This document shows, piece by piece, positions 29,430-42,268 of a DNA stretch of 64,000 bases (positions are counted from its first letter, which is position 1; every line of letters starts with the position of its first letter). This stretch comes from an alpha proteobacterium BAL199 (GTDB lineage Bacteria; Pseudomonadota; Alphaproteobacteria; Thalassobaculales; Thalassobaculaceae): contig ABHC01000017.1 in assembly GCA_000171835.1 (NCBI GenBank), positions 62,001 through 126,000 of the forward strand. Direction: 5' to 3'. The notes under the pieces are model-generated. The model was not told the DNA's origin. It saw nothing but the letters and a program-made list of their open reading frames with translations, and searched no databases. A program made the translations under genes and the position numbers.

Positions 29430-29927
29430 TTACGCGGCGGGGCGCTTGCGGATCAGGTAGCGGTGCTCGCCGGTCAGCACCAGTTCGCGTTTCTGGTTGT
29501 GGATGGTGGTGCCCATGACCAGCACGCCGGTGGTGCGCTGCACGATCAGTTCGGCGACCTGAAGGGCCGGATACAAGGTGTCGCCGGCAATCACCGGGCG
29601 CAGGAATTTCGACGACTGCTCCAGGAAACCGATCAGCGAGTCGGATACCTCGTGCGGGAAGCGCCCGGCGCCGGCCGCGGTGAAGCACAGCACCTGCAGG
29701 CCATGCGCCAGCAGGCCCGGCAGGCCGCGCGCGCGGCAGAACTCGACGTCGTAGTGGATCGGGTGATTGTCGCCGGACACCGCCTGGAACGCAGCGAAGT
29801 TCGCCTCGGTGATGGTGCGGCTCGGCAGCACGTAGCGCTCGCCGACGACGAAATCCTCGAACCAGCGCTGGGGTGTCACAGCATGGGCCGAGGGATCGAA
29901 GGTCGGATCGGGCGAGGATGCCATCAT
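29430..29927 (-). CDS. MaoC-like (R)-hydratase domain protein
   Basis: A 165-residue hot-dog-fold protein with the MaoC hydratase signature: FEDFVVGERYVLPSRTITEA, then FQAVSGDNHPIHYDVEFCRA, where D and H are the catalytic dyad, and GLLAHGLQVL. Such proteins hydrate trans-2-enoyl-CoA or act as dehydratases on branched or aromatic acyl-CoA. Here it is the last gene of a minus-strand run with a Pse-associated methylase and a cytidylyltransferase, and its ATG at 29927 overlaps the methylase stop. A role in making an acyl group for the sugar or glycan is possible but unproven. Confidence 0.82.
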   Translation of the reverse strand: MMASSPDPTFDPSAHAVTPQRWFEDFVVGERYVLPSRTITEANFAAFQAVSGDNHPIHYDVEFCRARGLPGLLAHGLQVLCFTAAGAGRFPHEVSDSLIGFLEQSSKFLRPVIAGDTLYPALQVAELIVQRTTGVLVMGTTIHNQKRELVLTGEHRYLIRKRPAA

Positions 29928-30550
29928 CCATGCTTCTCCAGCAGGAACCAAGTCAGGTCGTCGGCCGGAAAGTTCGGGTCGCGGTGGTACTGGAACCCGT
30001 AATCGACCAGCCTGAGATCGGGGAATCGGTCGAGGATCTCGCCCGCGAAATCGCGTTTGAACAGCCGATCGCTGTGCCCGCGGTACGGGATCGCGACCGG
30101 GGCCGGGTTGTAGTACTCGGCCACCAGGATCAGCCGCCCGGACGCAGCGTGCAGGTTGTCGTAGACGGTCGGCAGGGCGTCCGGGTTGATGTGGATGAGG
30201 ACGCCGGAGCAGAAGGCGAGGTCATAGGTTCGGGTTGCGTGCCGTTCCAGGATCGAGCCGTGAAGGGCTGTCACGCCGTCGATCTGCTTCAGGGACTCCA
30301 CCGCCTTGGCGTTGATTTCGATGGCCGCAAGCTCGATGGCCGGAAGCAATCGGCGCAACGCCAGCAGGTTCAGGCCGATGTTCGGTCCGAATTCGATGGC
30401 GGAGGTGACCGGTCCGGCGCGGCGCAGGGCGTTCGACAGCATGTGGCTGCGCCCGGCAACCAATGCCTCGCCACGGTTGCGGTCGGCGTAGTCGTTGCCG
30501 AACGCCCCGCTCCAGAACGCCTCCTGCTCGGTCTTCCAGGCATCAGTCAT
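29924..30550 (-). CDS. Pseudaminic acid biosynthesis-associated methylase (TIGR03587-like)
   Basis: A 208-residue SAM-dependent methyltransferase. The SAM site is AIEFGPNIGLNLLALRRLLP followed by IELAAIEINAKAV. The family-specific C-terminal block is present: VLIHINPDALPTVYD, AEYYNPAPVAIPYRGHSDRL and FKRDFAGEILDRFPDLRLVD. Proteins of this family occur next to pseudaminic acid genes and are thought to O-methylate the nonulosonic acid or its precursor. It overlaps the cytidylyltransferase gene by 8 bp upstream and the MaoC gene by 4 bp downstream. Confidence 0.85.
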   Translation of the reverse strand: MTDAWKTEQEAFWSGAFGNDYADRNRGEALVAGRSHMLSNALRRAGPVTSAIEFGPNIGLNLLALRRLLPAIELAAIEINAKAVESLKQIDGVTALHGSILERHATRTYDLAFCSGVLIHINPDALPTVYDNLHAASGRLILVAEYYNPAPVAIPYRGHSDRLFKRDFAGEILDRFPDLRLVDYGFQYHRDPNFPADDLTWFLLEKHG

Positions 30551-31310
30551 CGGAGTCTCCCGAAATTGGCTGTTCATAGCGTCGCTGCTTCTGGCCGACG
30601 CCGGCATTCAGCGCCCGCCAGTCGGGGTGCTTGTCCAGCAGCGCGATCACGTCGCGCCAGCCGAAATTGGGGTTGGCCGGCAGCAGCGCCTCCAGGATCC
30701 GGACCAGTAGTTCGTAGTCCGATCGTTCGTCCAGCGTCCAGCGATAGCCCGACAGATCCTTCGGCGCCAGATGCCGGGCAATCCGGAACCGCTCGGGCTG
30801 ACGGTACAGGAACGGCGTGACGTGTTCGCGGTCATAGGGATCGTCCGTCTCGGCATTGGCAAGTCGCAGTGCCGCCATCGAGGCGACCTCGACGTCGAGC
30901 CCGATCGGCCAGGTGCGTGGCACGCTGTTGGTGGCGTAGTCGACGGCCGGATCGGCGGAGCGGAACACCGTCATCACGGCGTCGATCAACTCGGGGTCGG
31001 TCAGCGGACAGTCGCCGGTCAGCCGCACGACGGTGTCGGCGCCGACGCGCTCGGCGGCTGCAACGAAGCGACCGAGCACGTCTTGTTCGGAGCCGCGAAA
31101 CACGGCGATGTTCTCGCGCTCGGCCAGATCGGCGACTTTGTCGTCGGTGGCGTTGGCGGTGGTCGCGATGCAGATCGCGTCGACCGAACGGGCCCGCCGG
31201 ACCCGGTCGATCTGATGCGCCAGCATCTCCCGGCCGGCCGCGGGCAGCAGCACCTTGCCGGGCAGGCGGGTCGAGGTCATGCGGGCCTGGATCACAGCGG
31301 CAACGGTCAC
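30543..31310 (-). CDS. SpsF/NeuA-type cytidylyltransferase (candidate PseF)
   Basis: A nucleotidyltransferase of about 255 residues with the CMP-sugar fold: VAAVIQARMTSTRLPGKVLL at the N-terminus (nucleotide-binding R and K), VVRLTGDCPLTDPELIDAVM (metal-binding D) and LDVEVASMAALRLA. The group (COG1861) activates nonulosonic acids or related sugars. In this context CMP-pseudaminate synthesis is the probable reaction, taking the place of classical PseF. No ATG is available: GTG 31310 is used, with TTG 31334 and GTG codons between as alternatives. It is divergent from the GNAT gene, with the promoters sharing under 100 bp. Confidence 0.75.
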   Translation of the reverse strand: MTVAAVIQARMTSTRLPGKVLLPAAGREMLAHQIDRVRRARSVDAICIATTANATDDKVADLAERENIAVFRGSEQDVLGRFVAAAERVGADTVVRLTGDCPLTDPELIDAVMTVFRSADPAVDYATNSVPRTWPIGLDVEVASMAALRLANAETDDPYDREHVTPFLYRQPERFRIARHLAPKDLSGYRWTLDERSDYELLVRILEALLPANPNFGWRDVIALLDKHPDWRALNAGVGQKQRRYEQPISGDSDD

Positions 31311-31398
31311 TGGCGGTTCCACCACTCCTGCCAAGCGGGCTAGTCGCTTGTAGCATGGGATCGTCGCAGCGCCGGCCGCAAGCGGCTAAGCTGCAGCC

Positions 31399-31869
31399 AT
31401 GATGGACAGGCCAAAGATCACCCTGCGCCGAGCGTGCCGAGACGACTCGGCCGACCTGTTGGCTTGGCGCAACGATCCCGATACCCGGGTGAACTCCCGC
31501 AACACCGCGGAGATCGCCCAGGCGTCTCATGAGTCGTGGCTCGACAAGGCGCTGAACGACGCGAATCGACGGATCTGGATCGTTGAACGTGATGGCCGGA
31601 AGATCGGCACTGTCTCGGCTGTTCGCACCGCGTCTGCCGAGGTGGAATTGTCGATCACCGTGGCGCCGGAAATGCGCGGCCGGGGAGAGAGCGGCGGCAT
31701 GATCCGGTCAGCCGTCCTCGAGTCTATGACAGAGTGGCCGGATGTGGTCATCCGGGCGGTGGTGCGCGTCGAGAACGCGGCGAGCCGTCGTGCGTTCGAG
31801 CGTTGCGGGTTCGGCGTCACCGGCGAAGATGATGGGCTGCTGGTCTATCGGCTGATTGACGATGGGTGA
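31399..31869 (+). CDS. GNAT acetyltransferase, probable PseH-like
   Basis: A 156-residue acetyltransferase with RimJ/RimL-PseH features: ITLRRACRDDSADLLAWRND at the N-terminus, the acetyl-CoA loop VAPEMRGRGESGGMIRSAVL and the terminal VRVENAASRRAFERCGF. In the Pse pathway PseH acetylates the 4-amino group of UDP-4-amino-6-deoxy-altrose before PseG. The assignment rests on the family and on the genes around it. Its stop overlaps the start of the first TPR-glycosyltransferase gene by 8 bp, so the two are translationally coupled. Confidence 0.72.
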   Translation: MMDRPKITLRRACRDDSADLLAWRNDPDTRVNSRNTAEIAQASHESWLDKALNDANRRIWIVERDGRKIGTVSAVRTASAEVELSITVAPEMRGRGESGGMIRSAVLESMTEWPDVVIRAVVRVENAASRRAFERCGFGVTGEDDGLLVYRLIDDG

Positions 31870-33691
31870 TCCGGAGCTGGATGCCCCGTCGGTCGAGACG
31901 GGGCTTGCGCTGCACCGAGCCGGGAGACTGCGCGAGGCGATGGCGGTCTATGGACAGGTGCTCCGAGTCGACAAGCGGCAGCCGGCCGCGTTGCACGGAC
32001 TGGCGCTGGCGCTGCACCAGTTGGGGGATCACGCTGCCGCGGAGCCGTTGATGTTCGCAGCGGTCCGGCTTGATCCGAGGGTTCCGGGGTACCGCAACAA
32101 TTTCGGAACGATCCTGCGGGCGGTCGGCCAGCATGAGCGCGCCGTGGCGAACTTCCGCGAGGCGTTGCGGCTGAATCCGCTCTATGCCGATGCTCGGGCC
32201 AATCTCGGCAGTGCCCTGCCATGGTTGAGCCACGAGCGCGATGCCCGGCACCATCTGCACTGGGCCTGTCTTTTGGAACCAGCGCATAGCGAAGGCTGGG
32301 CCAGTCTCGGTGCACTGGAGCGGTCGGCGGGACAACTCGAACGGTCGATCACGGCGCAGCGCAGGGCACTGGCAACGCAGCCCCTGAGCGCGGCGTGGCG
32401 GCTGAACGCCGGGTCGGCACTGCTGGAGGTCGAGCGGCTTGAGGCGGCCCGGAAACATCTGATCCGTGCCGCGATGCTCGATCCTGGGCTGGCGGGGGCC
32501 TGGAACGACCTCGGGTATCTGCTCCTGACGCAGTTGCAGACTGTGTCGGCAGACCGCTGCTTCCGGCACGCGGCTTTCGCTAAGCCATCCTACGGGGCCG
32601 CCTGGGCTGGTCGAGCCGAAATTGCGGCGATCGATGGAGATCTCGATGCGGCGGTCCGCTACGCGAACCGTGCGGTCGAGGCCGAACCCGGCAATCCGCA
32701 ACTGCAGTTCAGGCGTGGCATCCACAGGTTGGCTGCAGGCGACCTGAAGGGTGGCTGGGCCGACCATGACGCGATGTGGCGGAAACCCAACGCCGTCCAG
32801 CGCATAGGGGCACCGCGGCGCTGGGCGGGCGACTCGCTTGCAGGCAAGACTTTGCTGGTAGCAGCCGATCAGGGCATCGGCGACGAACTGCTGTTCTCCA
32901 GCTGCATCCCCGACGCCATGCAGGCCGCGGACCGTGTGGTGCTGGAGTGCGATCCGCGGCTTGAAACTTTGTTCAGGCGTTCGTTTCCCGGGGTGTTCGT
33001 CCATCGCTACGCGCGGGGCGGAACCCGCACCCGGCCGACCCAGAACTACGACTGGATCCCGCCCGACCTCTCGCCGGACGTGATGATCGAGGAAGGCGGG
33101 TTGATGCGCTGGTTCCGGTCTTCAGTCGAAGCCTGCGATGCCGCCGGGCAGCCGTGGCTTGTGCCGGACCCGGTCCGGGGTGCGGCTATGCGTGCCGTGG
33201 TTTCGAAGCTCGGACCGGGGCTGAAGATCGGCGTTTCCTGGCGCAGCATGCGGCAGACCGAGGCGCGGAACGTGCACTATCCGGGGTTGGCGGCGCTCGC
33301 ACCGATCCTGGCGGTGCCGGGCGTCACCTTCGTCTGTCTGCAATACGGCGCCGGCTGGCAGGACGAGTTGCGTGCCAGCCGGGCACCGGTGTCGGTCGTT
33401 CCTGGGCTCGATACCACGTCCGACATCGAAGGCGTGGCGGCGCTGGCCGCCAGCCTCGATGGGGTGATCTGTCCGTCCAGCACCATCGGCTGGATCGGCG
33501 CCGGGGTTGGAACCTCGGTCTGGCTGCTGTCGAACGAGCCGGTGTTCCTGGAGTTCGGGCTGAAGCGACTACCGGGCTTTCCGACCGTCCGGCCGTTCAG
33601 CAAGCGTCAGACGGATCCCTGGCAGCCGATGCTGGCGCAGGTCGCACAGGAGCTTGCTGCCTGGTCGGTTCGAGAATCGGGCGGCGTCTGA
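31862..33691 (+). CDS. TPR-glycosyltransferase, FlmG-like (copy 1)
   Basis: A 609-residue modular protein. Residues about 1-290 form some seven tetratricopeptide repeats (HRAGRLREAMAVYGQVLRVD, AVANFREALRLNPLYADARA). Residues about 320-600 form a GT-B/heptosyltransferase-like domain (TLLVAADQGIGDELLFSSCI, VVLECDPRL, LKIGVSWRSM, VICPSSTIGWIGAGVG). This is the layout of Caulobacter FlmG, whose TPR part binds flagellin and whose catalytic part attaches pseudaminic acid. The pse genes around it support the same role. ATG 31862 overlaps the GNAT stop. A paralogue of equal length lies at 35878-37710. Confidence 0.78.
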   Translation: MGDPELDAPSVETGLALHRAGRLREAMAVYGQVLRVDKRQPAALHGLALALHQLGDHAAAEPLMFAAVRLDPRVPGYRNNFGTILRAVGQHERAVANFREALRLNPLYADARANLGSALPWLSHERDARHHLHWACLLEPAHSEGWASLGALERSAGQLERSITAQRRALATQPLSAAWRLNAGSALLEVERLEAARKHLIRAAMLDPGLAGAWNDLGYLLLTQLQTVSADRCFRHAAFAKPSYGAAWAGRAEIAAIDGDLDAAVRYANRAVEAEPGNPQLQFRRGIHRLAAGDLKGGWADHDAMWRKPNAVQRIGAPRRWAGDSLAGKTLLVAADQGIGDELLFSSCIPDAMQAADRVVLECDPRLETLFRRSFPGVFVHRYARGGTRTRPTQNYDWIPPDLSPDVMIEEGGLMRWFRSSVEACDAAGQPWLVPDPVRGAAMRAVVSKLGPGLKIGVSWRSMRQTEARNVHYPGLAALAPILAVPGVTFVCLQYGAGWQDELRASRAPVSVVPGLDTTSDIEGVAALAASLDGVICPSSTIGWIGAGVGTSVWLLSNEPVFLEFGLKRLPGFPTVRPFSKRQTDPWQPMLAQVAQELAAWSVRESGGV

Positions 33692-33703
33692 GCGGGACGT
33701 AGG

Positions 33704-34786
33704 CTAGGGGCGAAGCGCCAGAACCGACGGTGCGACTTGGGCGATCACCCGGGCCACGCCGTGACCGTCGACCAGCGTTCCAGCGATCTCGGACATCGCC
33801 GCTCGGCGTGCCGGGTCGCGCGCCAAGCCAAGGATGGACGCACCGAGACTGTCGGCGTCGAGATCGGCGAACGGTCCGAGCATCTGCGCAGCACCCAGCG
33901 CGTCCATCCGGCGGGCGGGAGCAATCTCTTCCGGCACCAATGCCCCCAGCAGCATCGGCGCGCCGCGGCTGGCGAGTTCCAGCACTGTCGATCCGCTGGC
34001 GGAGACCACCATGTCGGCTTCGTCCATCAGGCTGACCATGTCCTGGACGTCGTGCAGGACCTCGATCCCTCGATCGCTCCCCGCGGCAGACTGCAGCCGC
34101 GCAAGCGCCGGGTTGGCGGCGCCGACCACCAGTCGAATCTCGGCGAGGCCCGGTTCCGCCTCCCGAGCCCATTGGGCGGCGGCCAGGACTGTCGCCGAGA
34201 CGCCAGCCGGATCGGCCCCGCCCAGCAACAGCAGCAGACGGCGTGCGACCAGCGGATGCTTGCGGGCCGGCACCGGGCGGGCGAACTCCGGCCGCAACAG
34301 GGCATAGCGCGGCCCGGCGAGGACGGCTGCGTCGGTCCGGCCGGCGTAGTGTTCGGTCTCGGCGTAGACGTTGTGATTCACGACGAAGGCGCCGGGAACC
34401 CATGTCCGGGCGGCTGTATCGTCGACCATCAGCAGCGGCGCGCGGCTCGCGGCCAACGTTGCCAGGAACTCCTCGTCAAAAGTCCAACCATCGACCGCTA
34501 CGAGATCGTTGTCGTCGAGCCAGACTGTCTCTCTGGGGTCCGGCAGAGGATGCACCGCGACCCCCCCGGCTTCGGCCCGACGGCGCAACGCGTCCGGCAA
34601 TTGGTGGCTGGCCAGTTGGGCATTTCCCCCGGCGCGCAACCATCCCAGCGCGAGGGCGAGGCCGCGCATCACGTGCCCGGTGCCGATGGTGGGACCAGCA
34701 TCGGCCCGGACCGTGAGGCGAGCACCGTTCAGCGAAGGCAGCCTTGGCGCTTCGCCGGTTCCGGAGCCGGTGTTACCTTCATCCAT
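33704..34786 (-). CDS. pseG: UDP-2,4-diacetamido-2,4,6-trideoxy-beta-L-altropyranose hydrolase
   Basis: A 360-residue GT-B-like hydrolase that removes UDP from the Pse precursor. The PseG signature RADAGPTIGTGHVMRGLALA is present with the catalytic histidine, followed by LLMVDDTAAR, RPEFARPV, LLLLLGGADPAG and MVVSASGSTVLELASRGAPM in the nucleotide-binding half. ATG 34786 gives a normal length, and the open frame upstream of it overlaps pseI's 5' region. The gene is convergent with TPR-glycosyltransferase 1 (12-bp gap) and divergent from pseI with only 25 bp between the start codons. Confidence 0.9.
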   Translation of the reverse strand: MDEGNTGSGTGEAPRLPSLNGARLTVRADAGPTIGTGHVMRGLALALGWLRAGGNAQLASHQLPDALRRRAEAGGVAVHPLPDPRETVWLDDNDLVAVDGWTFDEEFLATLAASRAPLLMVDDTAARTWVPGAFVVNHNVYAETEHYAGRTDAAVLAGPRYALLRPEFARPVPARKHPLVARRLLLLLGGADPAGVSATVLAAAQWAREAEPGLAEIRLVVGAANPALARLQSAAGSDRGIEVLHDVQDMVSLMDEADMVVSASGSTVLELASRGAPMLLGALVPEEIAPARRMDALGAAQMLGPFADLDADSLGASILGLARDPARRAAMSEIAGTLVDGHGVARVIAQVAPSVLALRP

Positions 34787-34811
34787 CGCGTGACCCATGC
34801 CGGGAACGATC

Positions 34812-35885
34812 ATGGCACCCACTATAACCATCGCCGGCCGGAAAATCGGCTCCGAGCATCCGCCCTACGTGGTGGCCGAGATGTCCGGCAACCACAACGG
34901 TGACATCGAACGCGCGTTCCGCATTCTGGAGGTCGCCAAGGAAGCCGGCGCCGATGCGGTCAAGCTGCAGACCTATCGGGCCGACACCATCACGATCGAC
35001 CATGACGGGCCCGAGTTCTTGGTCAGGGGGGGGCTGTGGGACGGCCGCCGACTGTTCGAACTCTACGACGAAGCTCATACGCCTTGGGACTGGCACGCGC
35101 CGATCTTTGCCCGGGCTCGCGAGGTCGGGATCACGGTGTTCTCGGCACCGTTCGATCCGACGGCGGTGGAACTGCTCGAATCGCTCAATGCCCCTGCCTA
35201 CAAGATTGCATCGCCGGAGATCGTCGATTTGCCGTTGATCCGACGGGTCGCCCGGACCGGCAAACCGATGATCATCTCAACCGGCATGGCGACGTTCGAG
35301 GAAACCGAAGAAGCGGTGACGGCCGCGCGCGGCGCCGGTGCCGTCGAAATCGCGGTCCTCCACTGCGTGAGTGCCTACCCGGCTCCGGCGAATGACACCA
35401 ACCTGTCGACCATTCGCGACCTGGAGCGCCGGCTGGGTACCGTCGTCGGGTTGTCGGACCACACCATGGACACCACGATTGCCACTCTGGCGGTCGGTAT
35501 GGGCGCGGCCCTGATCGAGAAGCACGTCACGCTGGCGCGCGCCGACGGGGGAGTGGACAGCGCGTTCTCACTGGAGCCGATGGAACTGGCCCGGCTGGTG
35601 CTGGATGCCCGGATCGCCAAGGCGGCGATAGGGCAGCCGGCCTATGGCCCGCTGGAGTCCGAGAAGACCGTGCTGAAGTTTCGCCGGTCGCTGTACGTCG
35701 TGGCCGACGTCAAGGCGGGGGGGGTGCTTACCGAAGCCGCGGTGCGCTCGATCCGACCCGCCATGGGGTTGGCGCCCAAATGGCTCGACAGTGTGCTGGG
35801 GCGCCGCGCCGCGCGCGATCTGAAGCGTGGCGAACCTCTGGCGGCTGACATGGTCGATGGCGGGATCCCGGGCTTCGATGGCTAG
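34812..35885 (+). CDS. pseI: Pseudaminic acid synthase
   Basis: A 357-residue NeuB-family enzyme that condenses 6-deoxy-AltdiNAc with phosphoenolpyruvate. Motifs are VVAEMSGNHNGDIERAFRIL, AVKLQTYRADTITID, FSAPFDPTAVELLESLNAPA, YKIASPE, ISTGMA, HCVSAYPAP, GLSDHT and EKHVTLARADGGVDSAFSLE, with a C-terminal SAF antifreeze-like domain (about 290-350). The GNHNGDI and KLQTY motifs favour PseI over sialic acid synthase. ATG 34812 or ATG 34797 may be used. Its stop overlaps the start of TPR-glycosyltransferase 2 by 8 bp. Confidence 0.92.
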   Translation: MAPTITIAGRKIGSEHPPYVVAEMSGNHNGDIERAFRILEVAKEAGADAVKLQTYRADTITIDHDGPEFLVRGGLWDGRRLFELYDEAHTPWDWHAPIFARAREVGITVFSAPFDPTAVELLESLNAPAYKIASPEIVDLPLIRRVARTGKPMIISTGMATFEETEEAVTAARGAGAVEIAVLHCVSAYPAPANDTNLSTIRDLERRLGTVVGLSDHTMDTTIATLAVGMGAALIEKHVTLARADGGVDSAFSLEPMELARLVLDARIAKAAIGQPAYGPLESEKTVLKFRRSLYVVADVKAGGVLTEAAVRSIRPAMGLAPKWLDSVLGRRAARDLKRGEPLAADMVDGGIPGFDG

Positions 35886-37710
35886 CCGGCCACGGTTCGG
35901 CGGGCTGTCGCTGGAGTCAGGGTTCGCCCTGCATCGTGCAGGAAAGCTGCGCGAGGCGGCAGCGATCTACGGCCAAGTGCTGCAAGCCAATCCGAAGCAG
36001 GCCGACGCGCTGCACCTGCTTGGCCTCGTCCTGCATCAGCTTGGCGATCACCTCAAGGCCGACGCGTTCATGTCGCAGGCGATCCGGCTGAATCCGAAGG
36101 CACCGGCGTATCGCAACAATCACGGTATGGTGCTCAAGGCGCTGGGTATGGATACCAAGGCCGTTGCAAGTTTCCGTGCAGCGCTCCAGTTGGACCCGGT
36201 GAATGCCGACGCGCTCGCCAATCTGGGTGGCTCATTGCCGTGGTCTTCGCGCGAGCAGGAGGCTCGGCGATCGTTTCGGCGGGCATGCCTGTTGGTCCCA
36301 GCCCACGACGAAGGGTTGGCGAGCCTGGGCGCGATGGAGCGCGCGACAGGCCATCTTGACCGGGCAATGGTGGCTCATCGTCGGGCGTTGACGGTTCAGC
36401 CGCTGCTGGCGGCCCGCCGACTGAACGTCGGCTCGTGCCTGGTCGAAGACGACCGCTATGACGAGGCCAGGGGTTACCTGGTCGAGGCGACCCTGCTTGA
36501 TCCTGCCTTGCCGGAAGCGTGGAGCGACCTGGGCTTCCTGCTGATGGGCCGGATGCAGGTGACTCAGGCCGAGCGGTGCTTTCGCCGGTCACTCGCGATT
36601 CGGCCGAGGCACGGACCAGCGTGGGCCGGCCGGGCCGAGACCGCGTATGTGGCCGGTGATGCGTCGGCAGCCGTTCAGGCATCGCAACGGGCGGTGGAGC
36701 TCGATCCGGCAAACCCGCATCTCCGACTGCGGCTCGGCATGCACCGGCTGGCGACCGGTGACCTGGAGCGCGGTTGGGTCGACCACGATGCGATGTGGCG
36801 CAAGCCCGACGCGGTCAAACGAATCGGAATGCCGCCGCGCTGGGACGGCGGTCCGCTGGGGGGCAAGACCTTGCTCGTCACAGCCGACCAGGGTGTCGGC
36901 GACGAGTTGCTGTTCGCATCCTGCATCCCGGACGCGATCCGGGCGGCCGGCCGTGTGGTCCTGGAGTGCGATCCCCGGCTGGTTGATCTGTTCAGGCGGT
37001 CGTTTCCCGATGTGTTCGTTCACGCGTATGAGCGCGGCGGAACCCGGATCAGGCCGATTCAGCGCTATGACTGGATTCCCCGCGAACTGGTTCCGGACCG
37101 GATGATCGAGGCCGGTGCGATGATGCGCTGGTTCCGGCCCACGGTGGCCTCGCTCGACGCGGCGGGAACGCCGTGGCTGACCCCCGATCCAGTGCGGGTC
37201 GCCGAGATGCGCGATGCCCTCGACGAACTCGGGCCGGGCCTGAAAATCGGCCTCTCGTGGCGCAGCATGCGGCTGACCGAAACCCGCAATGCCCACTACC
37301 CGGGACTGGCGCCGTTTGAGCCGTTGTTGCGAGTACCGGGGGTCCAGTTCGTGTGCCTGCAGTACGGCACCGATTGGGAGCCGGAGCTCCGCGAGACAGA
37401 CGCATCGGTGAACGTAATTCCGGGCCTGGATACGACGGCGGACCTGGATGGCGTGACCGCACTGGTCGCGGCACTCGACGGCGTGATCTGTCCGTCGAGC
37501 ACCCTCGGCTGGATCGGTGCTGCGGTCGGCAGGCCGGTTTGGCTGCTGTACAACACGCCGATGTTCCTGGAGTTCGGCACCGACCGCCTGCCCGGATTCC
37601 CGACCGTCCGGCCGTACCGGAAGAACCAGCCGGAGCCGTGGGAGCCGATGCTGCAGCGGGTCGCCGAGGACCTCGCCGGTTGGGCCGCTCAGTCGCCGGA
37701 CGCCGGCTGA
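35878..37710 (+). CDS. TPR-glycosyltransferase, FlmG-like (copy 2)
   Basis: A 610-residue paralogue of the protein encoded at 31862-33691, alignable end to end with the same TPR block (HRAGKLREAAAIYGQVLQAN) and catalytic block (TLLVTADQGVGDELLFASCI, VICPSSTLGWIGAAVG, FLEFGTDRLPGFPTVRPYRK). Differences are spread through both domains, so the copies are old enough to have diverged, perhaps for different flagellins or other acceptor proteins. ATG 35878 overlaps the pseI stop. Its own 3' end overlaps the convergent EamA gene by 22 bp. Confidence 0.78.
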   Translation: MASRPRFGGLSLESGFALHRAGKLREAAAIYGQVLQANPKQADALHLLGLVLHQLGDHLKADAFMSQAIRLNPKAPAYRNNHGMVLKALGMDTKAVASFRAALQLDPVNADALANLGGSLPWSSREQEARRSFRRACLLVPAHDEGLASLGAMERATGHLDRAMVAHRRALTVQPLLAARRLNVGSCLVEDDRYDEARGYLVEATLLDPALPEAWSDLGFLLMGRMQVTQAERCFRRSLAIRPRHGPAWAGRAETAYVAGDASAAVQASQRAVELDPANPHLRLRLGMHRLATGDLERGWVDHDAMWRKPDAVKRIGMPPRWDGGPLGGKTLLVTADQGVGDELLFASCIPDAIRAAGRVVLECDPRLVDLFRRSFPDVFVHAYERGGTRIRPIQRYDWIPRELVPDRMIEAGAMMRWFRPTVASLDAAGTPWLTPDPVRVAEMRDALDELGPGLKIGLSWRSMRLTETRNAHYPGLAPFEPLLRVPGVQFVCLQYGTDWEPELRETDASVNVIPGLDTTADLDGVTALVAALDGVICPSSTLGWIGAAVGRPVWLLYNTPMFLEFGTDRLPGFPTVRPYRKNQPEPWEPMLQRVAEDLAGWAAQSPDAG

Positions 37711-38627
37711 TCGCGGGTCACGGCGACCCGGCGCCGACTTTCCCGATAGGTGATGTACAGCCCGCTGCCGACGATCACGGTGGATCCCACCAAGGTCCAG
37801 AAGTCCGGAAACGTGCCGAACACCAGCCAGCTCAGCACCGTCACCATCAACAACTGACCGTAGTTGAGCGGAGCGAGGAACGACGCTTCGCCGAGCTGGA
37901 ACGCCCTGATGACGAAGTAGTGTCCGACCCCACCGATCATGCCCAGCAGGCAGAACAGCCCGGCATCCGTCAGAGAGTGTGGCGTCACCCACTCGAACGG
38001 CACGGCGATCGATGACAGCACGGCGCCGACGACCGCGATGTAGGTGATCGAGGTCTCGGGGGTGTCGGCCGCCGAGGTCTTGCGGGTGACGATCTGGTAG
38101 ACGGCGTAGGAGAACGCCGTTCCCAGGATCAGCAGCATGGCCCAGTGGGTCTCGCCGCCGCCGGGCCGGATGATGATCATCGCCCCGGCAAATCCGACCG
38201 CGACGGCCGCCCAACGCCGAGCCCCCACCACCTCGCCCAGGAACGGGGCGGCCAGTGCCGTCACGATCAGCGGCGAGGTGAAGTTGATCGCGCTGGCGGT
38301 CGGCACCGGGATCCAGCGCAGCGCCGTGAAGAAGCACACCGTCGAGACGAACATCAGCAGGGACCGCACAATGTGCACGCCCGGCCGGGTGGCGCGCAGC
38401 AGACCGAGGCCATGGCGCGGCATGAACATCAGCAGCATAAACACCAGATGCCCGGTGTAGCGCGCCCACAGGATCTGCGTGGTCGGGTAGTCGGTCGACA
38501 GGAACTTGGCCGCAACGTTCATGAACGGCAGGACAGTGATCGCCACTCCCATGAACAGGAAGGCGGTGATGGTGTCGCGAGTTCCGGTGGTGGCCGGTGA
38601 GGTGGGCGGCGGGGTGCCGAGCGGCAT
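37689..38627 (-). CDS. EamA family (DMT) transporter
   Basis: A 312-residue inner-membrane protein with ten predicted helices in two EamA repeats (about 20-150 and 165-295). Typical segments are TTQILWARYTGHLVFMLLMF, ASAINFTSPLIVTALAAPFL and EASFLAPLNYGQLLMVTVLS. The substrate is unknown. ATG 38627 is used, and the 12 codons upstream in frame add nothing membrane-like. It overlaps the TPR-glycosyltransferase gene tail-to-tail by 22 bp, and its location next to the Pse cluster may be incidental. Confidence 0.85.
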   Translation of the reverse strand: MPLGTPPPTSPATTGTRDTITAFLFMGVAITVLPFMNVAAKFLSTDYPTTQILWARYTGHLVFMLLMFMPRHGLGLLRATRPGVHIVRSLLMFVSTVCFFTALRWIPVPTASAINFTSPLIVTALAAPFLGEVVGARRWAAVAVGFAGAMIIIRPGGGETHWAMLLILGTAFSYAVYQIVTRKTSAADTPETSITYIAVVGAVLSSIAVPFEWVTPHSLTDAGLFCLLGMIGGVGHYFVIRAFQLGEASFLAPLNYGQLLMVTVLSWLVFGTFPDFWTLVGSTVIVGSGLYITYRESRRRVAVTRDQPASGD

Positions 38628-38764
38628 GGATGTAGAGTAATGCTGCGCTGCAGCGACTGGCAAGCGTTCGTCGGCGTTGAATTATCTCTGGTCGTGGAGC
38701 GCCGCACGGGCTTCCCTTGGGCGAGAGGGCGGCGCTATCGTCCAGAGCATCAAGGAGAACGGCC

Positions 38765-41116: not shown

Positions 41117-42265
41117 GTGGATAAAATCCGACATTAGAATCCCGCTCAGGATTCCCGCGGGTTCGGTGGCGTGCGAGTCTGGGGCATGCGCACCGGGATC
41201 AGCTTCACCGTCAGTACCGCCGATCGCGCCCGCCTGGAGGCGATCGTGGCGGACCGCAACAGCCCGCAAAAGCACGTCTGGCGCTGCCGGATTGTGCTGC
41301 TCACCGCCGCGGGCCTGGGCACCAACGCGATCATGCGCGAGGCCGGGGTCGCCAAGACGGCGGTCTGGCGCTGGCAGGAGCGCTTCGCCGCCGAAGGCGT
41401 GGACGGGCTGCTGCGGGACAAGACGCGCCCGTCGCGGATCCCGCCGCTGGACCCCTCGGTGGCCGAGCGCGTCGTCGCCCTGACCCTGACCGATCCGCCC
41501 GGCGAGACGACCCACTGGACCGCCGCAACGATGGCGGCACAGACCGGCATCTCGGTTAGTTCGGTGCAGCGGATCTGGCGTGCTCACGGTTTGGCCCCGC
41601 ATCGGATCCGGCAGTTCAAGCTCTCGAACGACCCGGAGTTCGTGACCAAGCTGCGCGACGTGGTCGGGCTCTATGTCGACCCGCCGGCCCACGCCATCGT
41701 GCTCAGCGTCGACGAGAAGAGCCAGATCCAGGCGCTCGACCGCACCCAGCCCGGCCTGCCGCTGAAGAAGGGCCGCGCCGGCACCATGACCCACGACTAC
41801 AAGCGCCATGGCACCACCACCTTGTTCGCTGCCCTCAACGTGCTCGACGGCACCGTCATCGGCCGCAACATGCAGCGTCACCGCCACCAGGAGTTCATCC
41901 GCTTCCTCAACCACATCGAGGCCCAGGTTCCGGCCGGCAAGGTGATCCACGCCGTCCTCGACAACTACGCCGCCCACAAGCACCCCAAGGTCCGCGCCTG
42001 GCTGCACCGCCATCCCCGCTGGACCTTCCACTTCGTGCCGACCTCATGTTCCTGGCTCAACGCCGTCGAAGGCTTCTTCGCCAGGCTCGCCAAGCGCCGC
42101 CTCAAGCGCGGCGTCTTCCGCTCTGTCGCCGACCTCCAGGCCGCCATCAACCGCTTCCTCGACGAGCACAACGCCTCAGATCCGAAGCCCTTCAACTGGA
42201 CAGCCGATCCCGACAAAATCATCGCCGCCGTCAGGCGTGGGCACCAAGTGTTGGATTCTATCCAC
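41117..42265. mobile_element. IS630-family insertion sequence
   Basis: The left end reads GTGGATAAAATCCGACATT (from 41117) and the right end reverse-complements to GTGGATAGAATCCAACACTT. TA dinucleotides flank both ends (41115-41116 and 42266-42267), as expected for IS630/Tc1-type insertion. The element is about 1.15 kb with one transposase gene. The GC content is similar to the host. Confidence 0.85.
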
Positions 42266-42268
42266 TAG
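41186..42268 (+). CDS. IS630-family transposase
   Basis: A 360-residue DDE transposase with an N-terminal helix-turn-helix (AAGLGTNAIMREAGVAKTAV) and a DDE core: D in LSVDEKSQIQALDRTQP, D in HAVLDNYAAHKHPKV and E in SWLNAVEGFFARLAKRRLKR. ATG 41186 is used, while GTG 41171 would add five residues. The TAG stop at 42266-42268 is formed by the target-site TA and the next host base, so translation ends at the insertion boundary. The frame is intact. Confidence 0.92.
   Translation: MRTGISFTVSTADRARLEAIVADRNSPQKHVWRCRIVLLTAAGLGTNAIMREAGVAKTAVWRWQERFAAEGVDGLLRDKTRPSRIPPLDPSVAERVVALTLTDPPGETTHWTAATMAAQTGISVSSVQRIWRAHGLAPHRIRQFKLSNDPEFVTKLRDVVGLYVDPPAHAIVLSVDEKSQIQALDRTQPGLPLKKGRAGTMTHDYKRHGTTTLFAALNVLDGTVIGRNMQRHRHQEFIRFLNHIEAQVPAGKVIHAVLDNYAAHKHPKVRAWLHRHPRWTFHFVPTSCSWLNAVEGFFARLAKRRLKRGVFRSVADLQAAINRFLDEHNASDPKPFNWTADPDKIIAAVRRGHQVLDSIH

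Follow-up and report, generated by a model that had tools for sequence, protein, structure and literature searches.

A pseudaminic acid locus of the alphaproteobacterium BAL199 carries two FlmG-class TPR-glycosyltransferases, candidate modifiers of flagellin

How enzymes of the FlmG class choose their sugar and their acceptor is the question raised by the stretch of DNA analysed here (64,000 nucleotides, G000:C53:62001–126000, from the 6.1 Mb, 69-contig assembly of alpha proteobacterium BAL199; hereafter the window), in which two TPR-glycosyltransferases (TPR-GT A and B) are encoded among genes for pseudaminic acid (Pse). For the Caulobacter enzyme FlmG, binding of flagellin by the TPR half and not by the glycosyltransferase (GT) half, and a requirement for Pse, are described in the available portion of the original report (PMC7591256).

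The Pse locus was confirmed in the window by open reading frame (ORF) calls and Pfam and NCBIfam scans (Table 1). All the genes listed in an earlier note on this DNA, coding for PseG, PseI, a PseH-like GNAT, a methylase, a cytidylyltransferase and two TPR-plus-GT-B proteins, were found, those for the methylase and the cytidylyltransferase upstream of the interval that it had described (31399–37710), and with PseG and PseH-like matches that remained under the family cut-offs. The cytidylyltransferase gave no NCBIfam match to PseF and is presumed to be the CMP-Pse synthetase. Because the longest pseG ORF and the pseI ORF run into each other head to head, the true PseG start is probably further in; PseI possibly starts at ATG 34812. 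A (ATG 31862) and the PseH-like gene share 8 bases at the stop of the latter (ATGGGTGA), the longest ORF of A running from TTG 31856. B (ATG 35878) and pseI likewise share 8 bases at the pseI stop (ATGGCTAG), the longest ORF of B running from GTG 35827. These starts inside the stops of pathway genes fit a translation of A and B coupled to that of the sugar genes. The EamA transporter encoded beside B has no known part in the Pse pathway. A 365-aa DDE transposase frame is present in the window at 41171–42268; its first 130 residues are identical to those of a copy on contig C67 (L040:1024–2121), so that it is probably a recent insertion element.

Table 1. Features of the Pse locus; positions are those of the window.
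Feature	Position	Strand	Evidence and remarks
Pse-biosynthesis-associated methylase	29924..30607	-	NCBIfam TIGR03587, 275.1 bits (cut-off 112.05)
SpsF-like cytidylyltransferase	30543..31334	-	Pfam CTP_transf_3, 100 bits
PseH-like GNAT acetyltransferase	31399..31869	+	Best family PseH TIGR03585, 55.8 bits, clearly below cut-off (93.1)
TPR-GT A, FlmG-class	31862..33691	+	Pfam TPR; clade P in both trees
CPSSTIGW motif of clade P, in TPR-GT A	33470..33493	+	Sequence
PseG (longest ORF)	33704..34831	-	TIGR03590, 145.1 bits, just below cut-off (153.55)
PseI pseudaminic acid synthase	34797..35885	+	TIGR03586, 466.3 bits (cut-off 340.25)
TPR-GT B, FlmG-class	35878..37710	+	Pfam TPR; AlphaFold2 model
CPSSTLGW motif of clade P, in TPR-GT B	37489..37512	+	Sequence; helix start in C-terminal half of GT
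EamA transporter	37689..38663	-	Pfam EamA; frequent neighbour, near TPR-GT in many relatives

PseB and PseC, which had been expected to be encoded elsewhere in the genome, were not recognised in the Pse locus of the window by the NCBIfam scan, and each was found once over the cut-off in the genome, both on contig C60 (3172–4143 and 7074–8252, respectively). A full NeuB domain occurs in a single gene of the genome, the window's pseI; a second NeuB match covers 102 of 241 model positions (23.8 bits, just over the Pfam cut-off). On C60 (L041:7059–11737), pseC is the last gene after those of an ABC transporter and a HlyD-type protein, overlapping the HlyD frame by 26 bases, and pseB lies about 3 kb off. 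The search for flagellin genes suggested in the earlier note located them on C65 and C67, with FlbT and FlaF also present in the genome: Flagellin_N gave six matches, four of them over the cut-off, and both flagellin ends were recognised in the three proteins scanned. A lack of flagellin genes, which the earlier note had named as a refutation of its proposal, is thereby ruled out. The genome profile search placed no flagellin gene near the Pse locus. Near a flagellin and hook genes on C67, a 616-aa protein combines TPR repeats with a sulfotransferase domain (L039:7604–9454) and possibly sulfates a flagellar protein or glycan. Maf proteins transfer nonulosonic acids onto flagellin, several paralogs per genome are known, and Maf-1 carries its TPR at the C-terminal end, in contrast to the N-terminal TPR of A and B, according to the available part of the source (PMC13317340). 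No match to Pfam PF01973 (Maf) was found in the genome by a search that detected only four archaeal controls and whose sensitivity to bacterial Maf is unproven.

The Pfam and NCBIfam families matched by A and B are of the TPR type only, and the GT-B half is assigned from the structure model of B. This AlphaFold2 model (alignment of 32 rows; mean pLDDT 94.5, pTM 0.89) showed TPR helices at residues 12–308 followed by a GT domain at 314–605. Residues 324–606 were aligned with the solved GT9 protein 3tov (VIA-align; Z 17.9, 3.5 Å over 263 residues), and no other match among 50 rows was restricted to the GT half, other GT families being possible. The best Foldseek PDB matches of the model were SPINDLY and O-GlcNAc transferase (OGT; GT41), in which, as in B, a TPR superhelix precedes the glycosyltransferase. 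The donors of these enzymes are UDP-GlcNAc or GDP-fucose. Over the full length their TM-scores were low, about 0.2 to 0.4, with 11 to 17% identity in the Foldseek rows listed; a differing angle between the domains might explain these scores. The FlmG-type layout recognised in the earlier note is thus present in B by Pfam TPR, model and PDB matches, and in A through its 62% overall identity with B. FlmG of Caulobacter crescentus has the same TPR N-half and GT-B C-half and a similar length (596 aa), as given in the accessible text (PMC7591256).

The distribution of the enzyme was studied in 116 genomes, 36 of them of the Thalassobaculaceae, with B as query (E ≤ 1e-80). Thalassobaculum fulvum (G001) belongs to the same genus as the window, and the next named relatives are T. 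litoreum and Nisaea. Matches were obtained in 23 genomes, of which 22 belong to the family (22/36) and the 23rd (G094) has a protein of a different clade. PseI over the cut-off and flagellin were present in all 22 family genomes with the enzyme; among the 14 without it, PseI was found in two and flagellin in seven (Fisher, 36 family genomes, 7e-8 for PseI and 4e-4 for flagellin, values that are uncorrected for relatedness and for incomplete assemblies). In G020 there is a partial TPR-GT next to an EamA-like frame at a contig end (E 2e-95 with the alignment); it was counted as absent. The TPR-GT gene stands directly behind pseI in 21 of the 22, the exception being G011, where it lies on another contig beside an EamA gene. 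A neighbourhood due to chance is unlikely, given the recurrence of this adjacency and a simple estimate of about 1% for such neighbours in one genome. Genes for the methylase, SpsF and PseG were usually, not always, recognised nearby, the methylase gene being found in most of the relatives' Pse loci read, beside that of the cytidylyltransferase. G035, in which PseI and the pseI-associated enzyme are missing and the flagellin-locus enzymes are kept, was considered as a natural experiment and dropped: its PseB is intact, and a missing contig explains the pattern equally well. Of 72,556 plasmid records, 139 gave a match to B, every one below 60% identity.

In a first tree of 61 TPR-GTs the 27 rows of the pseI type formed one clade (100/100), named clade P, in which A and B grouped with the copies of T. 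fulvum and G002 (100/100). Two clade-P copies stand at the locus in the window and in four Nisaea-genus genomes (G003, G014, G027, G031) and one in the rest; G005 has a second clade-P gene away from the locus. The sister of clade P (95/87) was composed of flagellin-locus enzymes, one other C67 protein and the third TPR-GT of Pse loci, whose gene lies directly behind the clade-P gene(s) in five Nisaea-genus genomes and G023. Through this third enzyme, whose sister is the family's FlbT-adjacent flagellin-locus type (99/95), the Pse locus and the flagellin locus are linked. A second tree had 65 rows. In it, FlbT-adjacent enzymes from other families formed a clade of their own with nine rows (100/100), and clade P was joined with most of the family's flagellin-locus enzymes in one clade (95/97) that excluded these nine; one flagellin-locus row, G001fla_413, fell outside the joint clade here and inside it in the first tree. 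Constraining clade P with the nine rows was not rejected (p-AU 0.07), and the same constraint on the family's own FlbT-adjacent enzymes was rejected (p-AU 5e-5). In our reading the TPR-GTs of the family probably expanded from an ancestor on the flagellin side, and clade P is as close to the FlmG group as the rest of the set.

Clade P is marked by the motif PS[ST]TxxW, present in 27/27 of its rows and in none of the 34 other rows of the first tree or the 34 rows added for the second. In a scan over the named genomes the motif occurred in 22 of 127 TPR-GT frames, which were the 22 best-scoring (at least 346 bits; best frame without it, 299), and in 0 of the 105 others. In the model of B it opens helix 541–549, which follows a strand of the C-terminal half of the GT domain. 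In the GT-B fold the donor phosphate is commonly bound at such a place. The FlbT-adjacent enzymes of other families have SAPTAA, GPGIAG and similar residues at this position. The use of CPSST as a sign of CMP-Pse utilisation was dropped and the motif is kept as a clade mark only; CPSST is lacking in those FlbT-adjacent enzymes of other families, likely the FlmG group. Outside the Thalassobaculaceae, about six TPR-GT genes stand in tandem in G094 (L105:4231–15960), some 5 kb from a flagellin gene, and the five G094 rows in the tree lack the clade-P motif. Frames of about 950 to 2,000 aa with TPR-GT matches occur in Azospirillum and a Roseomonas-labelled genome (L152–L155, L161–L164, L176); they possibly join several TPR-GT units in one protein, and some have a second such frame on the opposite strand.

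The search with B gave 40 matches in the BAL199 genome, many of them to TPR only, and BLAST on the matched stretches identified 14 further proteins with a GT half besides A and B. Two full TPR-GT genes lie among the flagellins on C65, one (232001–233839, + strand) divergent from FlbT and FlaF and the other at 229070–231085 (- strand), and on C67 a GT half without TPR is encoded about 5 kb from another flagellin. Some of the 14 lie beside a type I secretion/RTX locus, and thus the architecture alone does not mean flagellin. That locus, on C57 at about 36–58 kb (L045:8351–19764 and L046:2155–9670), codes for an RTX protein with 19 calcium-binding stretches, an ABC/HlyD type I secretion pair, other glycosyltransferases and five frames with a TPR-GT-type GT half, an arrangement which suggests enzymes aimed at the type I secretion substrate. 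In the family, at least one TPR-GT was found in the flagellin stretch read for 20 of 24 genomes; none was found in the stretches read for G004, G011, G012 and G017, in genomes that have several flagellin loci and with stretches cut by contig ends. Other families of the alphaproteobacteria likewise have FlbT-adjacent TPR-GTs next to their flagellin genes.

The position of flmG, beside flbT-flaF and flagellins, is therefore held in this genome by C65:232001–233839 and not by A or B. In C. crescentus flaF, flbT and flbA-flaG are reportedly contiguous, and flmG presumably corresponds to this unit. As far as the accessible part of the report goes, the C. crescentus genome resembles the present one in its scattered Pse genes, a cytidylyltransferase unlike PseF and the presence of flagellins; its flmG is paired with flmH, apart from the Pse synthase gene, and the one enzyme serves six flagellins (PMC7591256). 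Unlike this arrangement, the BAL199 enzyme B follows pseI and further TPR-GTs accompany the flagellins, the likeness of A and B to FlmG considered here being one of architecture and context. A parallel at the annotation level is provided by Phenylobacterium zucineum, for which the available part of the genome paper gives one flmG divergent from flbT-flaF, in the same gene order as on C65, and a second close to flmD, flmC and flmH (PMC2529317). The split between flagellin locus and sugar locus is shared, with one flmG listed in the sugar locus of P. zucineum and two TPR-GTs here (PMC2529317). No work on Thalassobaculum flagellin glycosylation appeared among the literature matches listed, a result that does not prove its absence from print.

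By halves, A and B are 54% (TPR) and 69% (GT) identical, and B and the T. fulvum copy 58% and 72%. At the TPR positions expected to be ligand-facing, A and B are 50% identical versus 58% in the rest of the TPR half (54% versus 60% for B and the T. fulvum copy). The suggestion that two copies mean two acceptors or two sugar variants is not supported: divergence by domain is like that of orthologs, neither half is specially changed, and the duplication is absent from the genus's two other genomes, T. fulvum and G002. No gene separates pseH from pseG in T. fulvum, so that A was probably inserted at this point; only the window, among the loci compared, holds a copy between them. A would then be the added copy, and B stands in the usual place behind pseI. 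As to the age of the copies, A grouped with the T. fulvum copy, together with G002, at 92/89 in the first tree and at 90/43 in the second, but sites were divided 47 to 39 in the TPR half and 24 to 38 in the GT half. Because part of the TPR half of the G002 copy is out of frame, little weight can be given to the TPR identities of this copy. Eight sites of the GT, every one in the C-terminal donor half, are conserved in B and five relatives and changed in A, and the reverse case comprises two sites changed in B, a weak hint of donor drift or faster change in A. These changes, and the single copies of T. fulvum and G002, would suit a role for B only, with A a redundant or decaying duplicate, which is compatible with our preferred explanation for B. 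A is, against this, an intact frame overlapping the PseH-like gene, and it keeps 42 of the 43 columns invariant in 16 other aligned clade members (B, 42 of 42) and is probably active; we consider its dispensability possible and rather doubtful.

Two other explanations concern the acceptor. The flagellin-locus TPR-GTs of C65 and C67 could transfer Pse to flagellin as FlmG does, with A and B acting later or elsewhere, for example in adding a sugar to Pse or on another acceptor. The gene on C65 does hold the FlmG-like position, as in P. zucineum, a point missed in the earlier note, whose proposal of a FlmG-like flagellin role for A and B otherwise agrees with the architecture, the Pse pathway, the flagellins and the conserved company in the 36 family genomes. 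Position and descent disagree, however, in that the AU tests reject one clade of the family's FlbT-adjacent type with that of other families and do not reject one of clade P with the latter, and the type found behind pseI is clade P; we regard this explanation as unlikely. A and B might also modify some other target in the cytoplasm, for instance a type I secretion substrate, or a polysaccharide or lipid, the flagellin link being a by-product of shared lineage. PseC closing an ABC/HlyD secretion operon on C60, the TPR-GTs flanking the RTX/type I locus on C57 and the fold of the GT half, like that of a GT9 protein, all speak for such an acceptor. Against it, none of the seven family genomes without a flagellin match has a match to B at E ≤ 1e-80, and none of the ten proteins scanned at 28–39 kb of the window is a polysaccharide or lipid assembly protein. 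In G007, moreover, the one flagellin-less family genome with PseI over the cut-off, PseI, PseG and SpsF are kept, the clade-P gene and the next TPR-GT are fragments only and the methylase frame is short (112 aa), a loss that fits flagellin as the acceptor, in a single assembly that is 87% complete. Action on another acceptor is accordingly judged quite improbable.

The explanation that we favour, with reasonable though limited confidence, is that A and B are FlmG-class cytoplasmic O-glycosyltransferases, genetically bound to the Pse pathway, that put Pse on flagellin. The genes of the window together with PseB and PseC from C60 would provide CMP-Pse, perhaps methylated, as the donor. Unfolded flagellin would be held by the N-terminal TPR superhelix, and the GT-B domain would transfer Pse to flagellin serines or threonines before export. 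The separate TPR-GTs beside the flagellin genes may serve other sugars or other sites on the same flagellins.

A more tentative and less likely reading is a divided flagellin glycosylation code in the Thalassobaculaceae, in which a Pse-dedicated, pseI-locked clade P, with PS[ST]TxxW in the donor half, would act alongside flagellin-locus TPR-GTs, generally two to four in number, that use other donors or sites; a filament might then carry several sugars added by separate, duplicating enzymes. What is new is that a sugar-locus clade and flagellin-locus paralogs are separate, a split with a precedent in the Phenylobacterium annotation. A clade that gene order links to one sugar pathway and that has its own motif, alongside flagellin-locus relatives with other residues at the place of the motif, bears on the choice of sugar and acceptor by FlmG-class enzymes, and the clade-P and flagellin-locus enzymes of the family would constitute natural pairs for domain swaps of the donor half or the TPR half.
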